Part shown: one piece after another, positions 19,542 through 23,542 of the stretch | Layout of the letters: each line of letters begins with the position of its first letter | How positions within the stretch are numbered: position 1 is the first letter of the stretch | Assembly (NCBI RefSeq): GCF_028702905.1 | Contig: NZ_JAQVNX010000011.1 | Span: 1 to 37,640 of the forward strand | DNA: 37,640 nucleotides | Source: Methanofollis sp. | GTDB lineage: Archaea; Halobacteriota; Methanomicrobia; Methanomicrobiales; Methanofollaceae | Reading direction: 5' to 3' | The notes under the pieces: model-generated | Told to the model about the DNA's origin: nothing | Database searches by the model: none | What the model saw: the letters and a program-made list of their open reading frames with translations, nothing else | Program-made: the position numbers and the translations under genes

Positions 19542-20759
19542 TCAACTCCACTGCATCCCGCGTTTCAGGAAAAGTTCCTCGTAGTCCTTGTAGGCCATGA
19601 TATACTCGGCATGGGGCCAGATGAGAGGATATACCACATAGGCAAAACCTTCGGACCACTTCGGGTGGTCCTTGATCCCGTCGATCATCACCATCTTGTC
19701 GTCCCTCAAAATGCCGGAAGAGCGGAAGAGGTCGACCCACTCCTCGAAGCGTGCGATTGTCGAGATGTGCTCGGGAAACATGTACTCGTGGGCGATGTCC
19801 AGAACCCAGCCGAGGTACACCTCGGCCCGGTCATAGTCGCCGATATGGATAAAGTGCCGCGCCAGCTGGCAGGTGAAGTGCGGCCAGGGGCCGTAACCGC
19901 CGTTGTTGCGGTCCCATGACTCGGGGTATCGGTTGATGCCGCCCAGTTCGCGGTCCCAGAGGGCGGCGTCCAGTCTCCGGACCGTGTTGATCACCCGCAG
20001 GTCGCGGTTCTTCAGCAGCCCGAAATAGGCCGGGGCGTACTCGGCCACATCAGGCTCAAAGATCACCGAGGCAAAGGGGTCGTAGCCGAGGGGTTTGCTC
20101 CCCTTCTCCTTGATCCGGATCGCCTTGACAAAGGTGCGCCTCCTCGCGCTGTACAGGCATCGGAGGATGCTCTGCTTGACCAGTTCGGCCTGCCGCGCCC
20201 AATCCCCCACCTCCTTCCCGAGGTGCTGCCCCATCTTCACCGCTTCGAGGATGCCGGCGCAGCAGGCCGAGTTCGCATAGATCTCAAACCCGTGCTCGTA
20301 GGCAGGGTACTCATGGATGCTGTTGATTGTGTGAATCAGGTGGATCTCGTCGTTCTTGTTCCGCAGGATGAAGGTGACCGCGTCGGCCACGTTCTTCCAG
20401 AACTCTTCGGCGATATCGTAGCCGTGGAGTTCGGAATATTTGCCGAGTGCGTAGAGGGCGACACCATTGCAGTCGATCTGGAGTTCCTTGTAACTGGTGT
20501 CCATGCCGTCCACATTGCACCGCTGGGGGAACTCGCCTGTCGGTTTCTGGGCCGAGAGAATAAACCGCAGGGCCCTCCTGCTCTCCTCGACAAGGCCGGC
20601 CCGCAACGCCCCAAGCGTGACGATCGAGTGGTCCCGCACGTAGATGAAGGGATAGCGCGTGCCCGGCGGGCTGGCATAAAAACCACCATTCGCATGCTGG
20701 TTCTTCTTTATAACCTCGATGCTCGACTGGTACAATTTCCCGGCTTCCTGCAAATTCAT
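19542..20759 (-). CDS. six-hairpin glycosidase, GH15-like
   Basis: A cytosolic alpha/alpha-toroid glycoside hydrolase of 405 aa related to glucoamylases (GH15-like). Recognisable parts are YPFIYVRDHSIV (about 36-47), the counterpart of the substrate-binding W-RD loop; a repeated helix pattern; RYPESWDRNNGGYGPWPHF; and EYMFPEHIS, placed like the catalytic-base loop of GH15. No signal peptide is present. It is the last gene of the GpgS operon, 9 nt after the 160-aa gene. By context it may hydrolyse or trim a glucosyl solute (glucosylglycerate) or glycogen; the sequence does not decide. ATG 20759 follows a GGTGG-like site. Confidence 0.72.
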   Translation of the reverse strand: MNLQEAGKLYQSSIEVIKKNQHANGGFYASPPGTRYPFIYVRDHSIVTLGALRAGLVEESRRALRFILSAQKPTGEFPQRCNVDGMDTSYKELQIDCNGVALYALGKYSELHGYDIAEEFWKNVADAVTFILRNKNDEIHLIHTINSIHEYPAYEHGFEIYANSACCAGILEAVKMGQHLGKEVGDWARQAELVKQSILRCLYSARRRTFVKAIRIKEKGSKPLGYDPFASVIFEPDVAEYAPAYFGLLKNRDLRVINTVRRLDAALWDRELGGINRYPESWDRNNGGYGPWPHFTCQLARHFIHIGDYDRAEVYLGWVLDIAHEYMFPEHISTIARFEEWVDLFRSSGILRDDKMVMIDGIKDHPKWSEGFAYVVYPLIWPHAEYIMAYKDYEELFLKRGMQWS

Positions 20760-20768
20760 ACGCCACCA

Positions 20769-21251
20769 TCACTGGAACTTGAAAATACAGGCCACCTTCT
20801 TCATCATCTCGTCCACTTCAGCCCTCCCGAGGCCGGCATTGACGATGGCATCGTCGTTGTAGACGGTCGCCCCCGCAGGATTGGCATCGCTTGCAAGGTG
20901 GAGCGAGGTCTTCTTGCCGGCCATCTCGGCACGCTTCGCCCGCAAGCAGTGGTGAAAGAGGCAGAAGATGTTGGAGACCGCAAGGCTCCTCCTCATCTCG
21001 ATGAGCATTCCGAACTCCTCGGGTTCTTCCCCAAACTCCTCGACGAACTCCTGGACAACGCTGAAAAACGGGCAGATATGGAGGACGTTCACCCCACCCA
21101 TCGGATCCCCTTCAAGGCCTGCCCCCTCTCGTTCACCGAGTGCCGAGGCAATGGCTTCTATCCAGGCGATCGTCTTTTCAGGCCCCTGCGACCTGACACT
21201 CTCGACAATTGCCAGAAGAAACGACGTCACCAGAACCTGTTTCACATCCAT
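20769..21251 (-). CDS. unknown protein (160 aa) in the GpgS operon
   Basis: I do not recognise the family. It is a soluble, mostly helical protein. It has a cysteine/histidine-rich middle (HICPF at about 59-63; IFCLFHHCLRAKR near 96-108) and a C-terminal CIFKF, which together could bind a metal. The pattern of an N-terminal helical region, a conserved Cys-Pro and a later Cys-x-x-x-Cys loosely recalls V4R or ATC-hydrolase-like small-molecule domains, but not enough to assign. ATG 21251 is chosen (GGGGT 6 nt upstream); GTG 21254 is in frame. It lies 42 nt after the phosphatase and 9 nt before the glycosidase, so it is very likely co-transcribed with both. Confidence 0.7.
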   Translation of the reverse strand: MDVKQVLVTSFLLAIVESVRSQGPEKTIAWIEAIASALGEREGAGLEGDPMGGVNVLHICPFFSVVQEFVEEFGEEPEEFGMLIEMRRSLAVSNIFCLFHHCLRAKRAEMAGKKTSLHLASDANPAGATVYNDDAIVNAGLGRAEVDEMMKKVACIFKFQ

Positions 21252-21293
21252 CACGATACCCCGGGGTGCATCCCATCAGGTATTGCATGGATT

Positions 21294-22091
21294 TTATATT
21301 TTTTCCAGCATCTTGACGACCGCCCGGTTCCAGCCCTCAGGGCCCACACCGTCGGCATGCACCACCTCCTGGCCAGCTTTTTCGTACGACCCGTCGGGCT
21401 TCTGGACCAGTATGGGGATGTCTGTCGCCGCAAGCATGGGAAGATCGTTTCTGCTGTCGCCAAGGCCGACAGTCGTCACCGTCCCGTACTCCTCCCTGAA
21501 GAGAGCGGCAAGGAGAGAGACGGCCCTGCCCTTGTCATTATCGCCGGTCAGGTGGAAGTACCGGCCGCCCCGCGTGTGCCTGAGGCCCCGGGCTTCGATC
21601 TCCCCGAGGACCGCCTCGACACAGGCGGGATCGGGGATGACAAAGGGTTCGTCATACTCCCTCATCCTGGCCAGACGTGCCGATGCACGGTCCAGCCCCG
21701 CGTCATGGGCGACCTCCTCGACGGTCATGTCCCCGAAACCTATGACTTTGCACCCGGTCTTCGACCGAATTTCCCTGATGGCCGCCCGCAGACGACCGTA
21801 GGGCGCGCCGAGTTCTATCACCAGATAGCCCCCGGCCTCACGGGTGTGGCCGACAGGCACGGTGAAGTAGCCGCGGGGGATGAAAACTGCTCCCCCGTTC
21901 TCGCTGATGAACGGGTCCGAGACACCCAGTTTATCCCTGACGACCTCGATCTCGGCTCTTGTCTTGCTCGTGCAGATGACAAGAGGGCACCTCTTCAGGG
22001 AGAGGAGGCGGAGTGCCGGGGCCGCGGCGGCAAAAGAATACGTGTCGTGGTCCAGGAGTGTCCCGTCCAGATCGGTGAATATGACGTGGAT
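21294..22091 (-). CDS. mannosyl/glucosyl-3-phosphoglycerate phosphatase (HAD, MPGP family), non-canonical start
   Basis: HAD-superfamily phosphatase that removes the phosphate from glycosyl-3-phosphoglycerate, the second step of glucosylglycerate or mannosylglycerate synthesis. Motif I is FTDLDGTLLD (nucleophile Asp7, Asp9 in my numbering), motif II VICTSKTRAE, then SENGGAVFIPRGYF, typical of the MPGP family, a lysine in DNDKGRA, and motif IV GLGDSRNDLPML. The protein of about 265 aa is full length. The first ATG/GTG/TTG codons in this frame come far after motif I, and none occurs upstream to beyond the end of the gpgS gene. I place the start at ATC 22091 (MHVIFTDLDG); ATA 22082 is another candidate. 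It begins 17 nt after the gpgS stop, next to a seven-G run. Confidence 0.8.
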   Translation of the reverse strand: MHVIFTDLDGTLLDHDTYSFAAAAPALRLLSLKRCPLVICTSKTRAEIEVVRDKLGVSDPFISENGGAVFIPRGYFTVPVGHTREAGGYLVIELGAPYGRLRAAIREIRSKTGCKVIGFGDMTVEEVAHDAGLDRASARLARMREYDEPFVIPDPACVEAVLGEIEARGLRHTRGGRYFHLTGDNDKGRAVSLLAALFREEYGTVTTVGLGDSRNDLPMLAATDIPILVQKPDGSYEKAGQEVVHADGVGPEGWNRAVVKMLEKI

Positions 22092-22108
22092 GCTCTCCCC
22101 CCCGGCCC

Positions 22109-23320
22109 CTACTCCCTGATGATATTCTCGTCCTCGATGATCGTCCTGATCAGTTTGTGCCTGAGCCGCGGGATGGCCGAACTAGCCCTGAGCCAGTCAG
22201 GGATCTGCGCATGTGCAGGTGAGATCAGGTACTCGTTCCCGGCCTCTACGATGACCCTCTCGAAACGATCGATGTAATGCTCCTCATCGTGCCGGTTGTA
22301 CCGGATCTGGTTGCAGATCGCATCGGTGTGGTACTGCCGCAGGCGGTCCTGCGCCGTCCTCCGGTAGAGCACCCTGAGGCTGGTGAGAAAAGCCGGGGAG
22401 ATCTCGTAGCCGTCGACCTCGGTCATCGCCCGCAGGAGAGTGACCAGGATGTCCCCGGCCATCTTCAGCAGCCCTTCAGTCCTGCCGGCGCCGATCAGTT
22501 TGTGTTTGTGGTCGTAATAGCCGAGGTCGGTCTGGCAGATCCGTTTCTTCACCACCGACCTGTACACCTCGTAGAGGGTGCCGATCTCAAGCCCCCAGTC
22601 CATGGGGATCCTGATGTTCAGGGCCAGGTCCGAGGTGAGAGCGATCTCCCCGGCAAGGGGGTACCGGAAACTGCGCAGGTACCGCAGGATGTCAGACTGA
22701 TGACCGGTTTTTACCTGGAGGGAATCGATCAGGGGGTTGAGAAAGAGGCGCGTCACCCTGCCGTAGAAGGTGGCGCGGCCGTCGCCCAGGCGGGCATAAT
22801 ACCCCTTGTTGAAGAAGTAGTCAAGGTCAGGGTTCACCAGGGGGAAGGCGAGTTTCATCGGGATCTCGCAGGAATAGTTCAGGATGTCGGCGTCGTGCAT
22901 GACGACGGCATAGGCGTCCACCGACGCGGCGCCGAGGGCCAGCCAGGTGTCCCTCCCCTTGCCCTGAATACCGAGGTCTATCCCTTCCTTCCCGAGGTCG
23001 CCGATGATCGCCTCGATGCCCGGGCTGTTGCACCACATGACCCGGTGAGGGCGCTCCAGCGAGTTGAAGAAGTGTGACGCCGATCTGAACTCCTCCTCTG
23101 ACCGGGCGTAGAGTGCCACCAGCACATTGTTCAGGAATGTCGCCTTGTTCAGTTCGGCGACGATGCCGGGCAACGCGCCATGACTGAGATCGCCGTAGGC
23201 CAGCGGCAGCACCAGGTTGATCGGCCTCTCTTCCTTGAGGTCTTCGAGAAACCTCAGGGTTCTCGACTTCTCATACCCGAAATCATGGATCGTCGTGATC
23301 GGCCCCTGATCGAAATCCAT
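22109..23320 (-). CDS. gpgS: glucosyl-3-phosphoglycerate synthase (GT81)
   Basis: Family GT81 glycosyltransferase joining glucose from NDP-glucose to 3-phosphoglycerate (EC 2.4.1.266), the first step to glucosylglycerate, a compatible solute. The 403-residue protein opens with ITTIHDFG, then RPINLVLPLAYGD, a GKGRDTWLALG loop and the metal/nucleotide-binding HDAD (142-145). FFNKGYYARL, FRYPLAGEIALTSDLALNIRIP and DWGLEIGTLYEVYR follow, all typical of GpgS. ATG 23320 is fixed by CGGAGGGGGG shortly upstream; the longer frame lacks support. It is the first gene of the operon gpgS, phosphatase, unknown, glycosidase. Sugar specificity (glucose over mannose) is inferred from family resemblance. Confidence 0.88.
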   Translation of the reverse strand: MDFDQGPITTIHDFGYEKSRTLRFLEDLKEERPINLVLPLAYGDLSHGALPGIVAELNKATFLNNVLVALYARSEEEFRSASHFFNSLERPHRVMWCNSPGIEAIIGDLGKEGIDLGIQGKGRDTWLALGAASVDAYAVVMHDADILNYSCEIPMKLAFPLVNPDLDYFFNKGYYARLGDGRATFYGRVTRLFLNPLIDSLQVKTGHQSDILRYLRSFRYPLAGEIALTSDLALNIRIPMDWGLEIGTLYEVYRSVVKKRICQTDLGYYDHKHKLIGAGRTEGLLKMAGDILVTLLRAMTEVDGYEISPAFLTSLRVLYRRTAQDRLRQYHTDAICNQIRYNRHDEEHYIDRFERVIVEAGNEYLISPAHAQIPDWLRASSAIPRLRHKLIRTIIEDENIIRE

Positions 23321-23457
23321 CGAACCCCCCTCCGAGCAGGCGCATATATCACGACTTTTATATTTATATCCACCCCTGCGGCAGGACATGGACGACTGAA
23401 TTGAGAAGACAGAATAGGATAAGGCAATCAAACACCGGGAAAGGCGATAAAAACGAA

Positions 23458-23542
23458 TGCGAGGGAAGGGATTCGAACCCTCGAATGCCTGCGCAATTAG
23501 GCCCTGAACCTAACGCCTTTGACCTGGCTTGGCTACCCTCGC
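23458..23542 (-). tRNA. tRNA-Leu, anticodon CAG
   Basis: A class II tRNA of 85 nt: acceptor GCGAGGG pairing with CCCTCGC, a D-arm starting GCCAAGCC, an anticodon arm TTAGG-TTCAGGG-CCTAA with anticodon CAG (plus strand 23504-23506), a 14-nt variable arm, a T-arm with GGGTTCGAATCCC and discriminator A. The long variable arm and anticodon give leucine (codon CUG). No intron is present and CCA is not encoded. A TATA element ATATCTTTATTTC (23579-23567, minus) lies about 25-35 nt upstream. Confidence 0.95.

Follow-up and report, generated by a model that had tools for sequence, protein, structure and literature searches.

A glucosylglycerate operon of Methanofollis with a GH15-like glycosidase and a proposed small partner protein

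The family chemistry of GpgS and GpgP, the synthase and the phosphatase of the route to glucosylglycerate, is established. The known glucosylglycerate hydrolase belongs to GH63 (PMC6608630). Functionally known GH15 enzymes have glucans, isomaltose or trehalose as substrates, and thus the family name alone predicts a glucan or trehalose. Their catalytic Glu residues lie in the α5-α6 loop and the α11-α12 loop, and the family includes a retaining transglucosidase with catalytic residues that are alike in sequence. A literature search, in which subscription journals were mostly missing, returned no archaeal glucosylglycerate-degrading enzyme and no relevant link of glucosylglycerate with GH15.

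Here, we focus on a four-gene operon in a window of 37,640 nucleotides. The window corresponds to contig 11 of a Methanofollis genome that is 2.41 Mb in size and 96% complete. The operon may be a self-contained glucosylglycerate cassette, in which a GH15-like glycosidase (hereafter GH) hydrolyses the solute and a protein of 160 residues (S160) is the dedicated partner or switch of GH. We consider this reading reasonably likely.

Organization of the operon

The operon lies where the initial annotation had placed it, with four genes on one strand and gaps of exactly 42 nt and 9 nt on either side of S160. The features are, in the direction of reading:

tRNA-Leu(CAG), 23458..23542, minus strand: borders the operon (ARAGORN)
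TATA-box-like element TATAAATATAAA, 23356..23368, minus strand: candidate operon promoter (sequence reading, conservation)
gpgS, 22109..23320, minus strand: glucosyl-3-phosphoglycerate synthase, 403 aa, HDAD motif (NF040724 match)
gpgP, 21294..22100 with uncertain start, minus strand: HAD-IIB glucosyl-3-phosphoglycerate phosphatase, ~268 aa (TIGR02461, DLDGT motif)
S160, 20769..21251, minus strand: alpha/beta protein of a new family, 160 aa, proposed GH partner or regulator (AF2 model, gene position)
GH, 19542..20759, minus strand: single-domain (α/α)6 GH15-like glycosidase, 405 aa, proposed glucosylglycerate hydrolase (NCBIfam, AF2, Foldseek)

GpgS aligns with positions 1-400 of the 402 positions of NF040724 (GpgS_Meth; E 1.7e-192, 640 bits with a cut-off of 700) and is ~50% identical to the orthologs of other methanogen genomes. 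GpgP passes both TIGR02461 (E 2e-77, 260.3 bits with a cut-off of 244.35) and TIGR01486 (245 bits with a cut-off of 165) and contains the catalytic motif FTDLDGT (DxDGT). The match along the synthase model, although below its cut-off, and the scores above the MPGP phosphatase cut-offs agree with the complete two-step route to glucosylglycerate that had been annotated. With family membership assigned by sequence, GpgS would transfer glucose from an NDP-sugar onto 3-phosphoglycerate, after which GpgP would remove the phosphate to give the compatible solute glucosylglycerate. GpgS-like proteins with ~35-42% identity are also found in ~70 genomes of the phylum outside the methanogen-type set, many of which are of larger size (mostly 2.4-4.4 Mb) and all of which lack a GH ortholog.

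The TATA-box-like element TATAAATATAAA is located ~48 nt upstream of the gpgS ATG. It is conserved in all four operon-bearing Methanofollis genomes (that of the window, G086, G090, and G094). As this element is kept before gpgS and four consecutive minus-strand genes follow, a single transcript covering gpgS, gpgP, S160, and GH is likely. A scan for sigma-70-type promoters and terminators gave values near the shuffle mean and is not meaningful in an archaeon. According to dN/dS between the four Methanofollis genomes, purifying selection acts on each gene of the operon, with values of 0.04-0.08 for GH, 0.00-0.09 for S160, 0.05-0.10 for gpgS, and 0.20-0.26 for gpgP; GH and S160 are thus under tighter constraint than gpgP.

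The start site of gpgP (22100-22098) reads GGG, likewise in G090, and ATG or GTG in two sister genomes. No in-frame ATG, GTG or TTG is present at the true start or anywhere upstream of GTG 21860, the first standard start, and use of the latter would delete the DLDGT catalytic motif. Unusual start-codon use or a run-of-G assembly fault shared with G090 are both possible. A pseudogene without a start was rejected, with dN/dS at ~0.2 and no stops, because dN/dS is no different whether or not a lineage has a standard start.

Conserved gene order and the small protein S160

A search with GH against 84,980 species genomes yielded 47 loci, all of which belong to methanogens and methane oxidisers of the phylum, bar one MAG labelled Nitrosotalea. 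Methanolobus, Methanococcoides, Methanohalophilus, ANME-1/-2, Syntrophoarchaeum, and Methanofollis are among the taxa, and the closest match to the window's GH from a named organism is an uncultured Methanofollis. S160 is positioned immediately upstream of GH at 45/47 loci, and the remaining two (L050, L082) end at a contig edge. GpgP precedes S160-GH at 42/47 loci, and the order gpgP-S160-GH is conserved in the loci of Methanosarcinaceae, ANME-1, ANME-2, and Syntrophoarchaeum. These counts strongly bear out the idea that the genes stay together across genomes. GpgS lies inside the fetched flanks at 31/47 loci, with a position and orientation that vary between loci. The stable core outside Methanofollis is gpgP-S160-GH; in Methanofollis, all four genes are co-directional in a single run. 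No further conserved neighbour was found at the 47 loci, the next commonest gene being present at 19 of them, and sugar kinases, glycerate kinases and the like do not recur within 8 kb of GH.

The distribution of S160 by genome follows the same pattern. S160 was found in 28/217 genomes, 27 of which also have GH; the exception is a fragment on a single contig of an 87%-complete genome. Across the order (140 genomes), gpgS and S160 are each confined to one shared set of four Methanofollis genomes, and in a class sample of 232 genomes full-length GH is present only in those four. The spacing between S160 and GH is 5 nt at most loci, with a 14-nt overlap in ANME-1. In most Methanosarcinaceae (e.g., L044, L051, L062, L064), GH apparently starts with TTG 5 nt past the S160 stop, suggesting translational coupling of S160 and GH.

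The AF2 model of S160 has a pLDDT of 93.6. Profile searches of PDB, Pfam, and NCBIfam returned nothing above chance, and a fold search gave no significant match (best E 0.69, TM at most 0.45). Residues G23, G43, G45, E47, G48, P61, A91, R107, and N132 are invariant. The initial annotation described the protein as Cys/His-rich, a trait that does not extend to the family: S160 has four Cys and four His per 160 residues, none of which is invariant across 47 relatives. The weak fold matches (E 0.69 or worse) cluster on V4R/Bet3-like and phenol-sensor domains, as might be expected if S160 were a stand-alone sensor that binds the solute or glycerate and has no GH partner, a role close to the sensing or binding of the sugar acid that had been annotated. 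We regard such a sensor as not very likely, and the earlier assignment is not upheld: the Cys and His residues are unconserved, no fold match is significant, a DNA-binding or signalling domain is lacking, and the tightest link of S160 is to GH.

The position of S160 ahead of GH at all 45 assessable loci, usually with a 5-nt gap, points to a GH partner. S160, which represents a new protein family, would most likely be the dedicated partner or switch of GH, not a free-standing sensor. As GH would be made alongside the enzymes producing its presumed substrate, control on GH would be needed, and S160 would be the natural candidate. Translated just before GH, S160 may bind or switch the enzyme.

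Fold, catalytic residues and proposed substrate of the glycosidase

The profile neighbours of GH are archaeal GH15 amylases and trehalases, with scores far below their cut-offs. The match to TIGR01577 (oligosaccharide amylase) has an E of 7.7e-24 and stays far below the cut-off, and NCBIfam GH15 equivalogs score 20-84 bits with cut-offs of 742-1000. The curated GH15 family cut-off is not reached (PF00723, 12.9 bits with a cut-off of 22), nor is that of the MGH1-like family (PF22422, 12.5 bits with a cut-off of 27). Sub-threshold Pfam matches to prenyltransferase and TPR families were rejected. The AF2 model (pLDDT 85, pTM 0.90) adopts the (α/α)6 catalytic barrel of GH15, with Foldseek matches to 5z3c, 1lf6, and 1ug9 (E 7e-13 to 1e-8). 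The best match, 5z3c (E 6.6e-13), is the GH15 isomaltose glucohydrolase of Kribbella (PMC12446779); a bacterial glucoamylase follows with E 5e-9, and the GH63 glucosylglycerate hydrolase matches more weakly (~7e-7).

E330 (P-E330-H) aligns with PEQ of GH15 (S5 motif, general base) and is invariant in 39 members. In the AF2 model it lies in the α11-α12 loop, between helices H309-322 and H381-399. E150 (SIHE, read against DLWE of the S3 motif DLWEE) lies in the α5-α6 loop; it is invariant, although the alignment is gapped and the pLDDT is below 50 here, and SIHE150 is kept even in the distant relatives L126 and L127. According to model and sequence, E150 would be the general acid and E330 the general base. 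E155 is likewise invariant and is a candidate alternative to E150 as general acid. No Asp, the general acid of GH63, is found within the SIHEYPAYEHGFE stretch of the α5-α6 loop, and R42 and D43 preserve the Arg-Asp pair found in the glucose-binding subsite of GH15. The annotation as a GH15-like glycosidase is supported, with a GH15-like fold and probable Glu/Glu catalytic positions as opposed to Asp/Glu in the GH63 glucosylglycerate hydrolase. Moreover, the α11-α12 loop is extended relative to that of GH15 and carries a conserved family-specific insertion with many invariant residues.

From its genomic context, GH might be the missing archaeal glucosylglycerate hydrolase. As an inverting GH15-type α-glucosidase, it would split glucosylglycerate into glucose and D-glycerate once the solute is unneeded, and the family-specific α11-α12 loop would probably close the pocket round the small anionic substrate. 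A hydrolase that is co-transcribed with synthesis causes a futile cycle unless it is controlled, which counts against this function; GH would have to stay inactive during salt stress.

Diglucosylglycerate is known in other organisms. GH might instead be a transglucosidase that converts glucosylglycerate to diglucosylglycerate or transfers glucose onto another acceptor, giving a further solute and no recycling. Co-transcription with the synthesis genes fits such a biosynthetic role, the retaining GH15 transglucosidase dextran dextrinase shares the catalytic positions, and its structure (9ju0) is among the top fold matches. However, the proteins most similar to GH in fold are hydrolases that have a single domain and an inverting mechanism, and the Methanohalophilus solute is reported as plain glucosylglycerate with no longer form (PMC3017947), which makes a transglucosidase unlikely.

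The hydrolase reading further draws on the co-occurrence of genes by genome. The phylum was surveyed in 393 genomes, of which 47 have methanogen-type GpgS, 47 have the GH ortholog, and 46 have both (Fisher's p 9e-58, with shared ancestry ignored). One of the two discordant genomes has GpgS only and the other GH only; both are incomplete MAGs, at 84% and 75% completeness. Two contrasts carry more phylogenetic meaning. Within family f8, genera g87 and g98 lack both genes and the other genera have both; Methanofollis, which is phylogenetically far from f8, has the two together. Mannosylglycerate synthase (MpgS, PF09488) is encoded in 63/393 genomes, and the absence of the GH ortholog from all 63 suggests that the glycosidase follows the glucosyl and not the mannosyl solute.

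More distant relatives of GH were also found. L126 and L127 (L133:8227-9552) share 28-29% identity with GH and keep the SIHE and PEH motifs; they come from two genomes of one family (f26), with mannosylglycerate synthase present and GpgS absent. In G356, genes for a distant GH relative and MpgS are ~54 kb apart, with no S160 nearby. L126 and L127 might represent a mannosylglycerate-cleaving branch.

GH-bearing genomes encode glycosidases of ~610-680 aa near glycosyltransferase genes and away from GH, for example at 422-427 kb in G406 (GH at 767 kb) and at 600-607 kb in G260 (GH at 1139 kb). Judged by family and neighbourhood, these are presumably glycogen genes. The initial annotation held that a location of GH mainly beside glycogen genes would speak against its proposal; the glycogen-type glycosidases are located elsewhere. 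PF08323 was uninformative for a glycogen link, as the profile matches general GT4/GT5 glycosyltransferases in 41/45 genomes, although the locations of these matches remained informative alongside those of the glycosidases. A search with PF22422 detected no MGH1/GH63-type hydrolase of ~440 aa in GH-bearing genomes, the short matches being the GH orthologs themselves. An ordinary α-glucan, isomaltose or trehalose hydrolase, fixed in this neighbourhood by chance, would suit the substrates of the nearest characterised relatives but is quite improbable given the concordance with GpgS in 46/48 genomes and with MpgS in none, the separate, non-adjacent glycogen-type glycosidases of the same genomes, the low scores against GH15 equivalogs, and the conserved insertion.

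Returning to GH as a glucosylglycerate hydrolase, a more tentative extension is that S160-GH is a new kind of regulated solute hydrolase, in which a GH15-type enzyme has been retuned to glucosylglycerate and is under obligate on/off control by a small partner. If true, archaea would keep the enzymes of synthesis and breakdown together, with the direction switched by salt.

Origin in Methanofollis and comparison with known systems

In a phylogeny of GH, sequences from Methanofollis cluster with Syntrophoarchaeum- and ANME-1-type lineages (100/99), apart from Methanosarcinaceae. Methanofollis without the operon have an unrelated gene of 319 aa at the same site, flanked by MmpL and tRNA-Leu/TBP; this gene is lipoprotein-like and on the same strand (L148:8082-9038, L149:8207-9163). 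The simplest account is that some Methanofollis probably gained the operon by horizontal transfer beside tRNA-Leu; alternatively, the operon may be ancestral and lost from the other Methanofollis.

If GH hydrolyses glucosylglycerate, a full salt-protectant cycle would be available to methanogens and to the anaerobic methane oxidisers of ANME-1 and ANME-2. Glucosylglycerate hydrolysis would then have evolved along a second, independent route, in another glycosidase family and with a new control protein. The four genes could then serve as a marker of glucosylglycerate use for genomes from saline anoxic sediments.

Among known systems, the best fold match is KfIG of Kribbella flavida (GH15; PDB 5z3a-f; TM 0.67/0.73). 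Both proteins consist of a single catalytic domain with a Glu base in the α11-α12 loop and a Glu acid, putative in GH, in the α5-α6 loop, at ~18-19% identity, and the substrate of KfIG is isomaltose. To our knowledge, KfIG has no GpgS, GpgP or S160 gene context. The archaeal GH15 oligosaccharide amylases and trehalases (TIGR01577, NF041084) are homologous to GH in the catalytic domain (E 8e-24, HHalign probability 99.9). They are ~650 aa long with an extra N-terminal domain, whereas GH lacks this domain and has the longer α11-α12 loop; some genomes (G233, G251, G438) encode a protein of this type as well as a GH ortholog. Glucosylglycerate phosphorylase (GH13_18) shares the proposed substrate of GH and a part in solute turnover (PMC11009771) but differs in fold and in its phosphorolytic chemistry. 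The glucosylglycerate hydrolase of Mycolicibacterium hassiacum (GH63; PDB 5ohc etc.) resembles GH in the (α/α)6 barrel and in size, and its inverting mechanism, substrate, and role in solute recovery are those proposed here for GH (PMC6608630). At 12% identity, its general acid is Asp182 in place of the putative Glu of GH, and GH is set apart from it by the constant pairing with S160.
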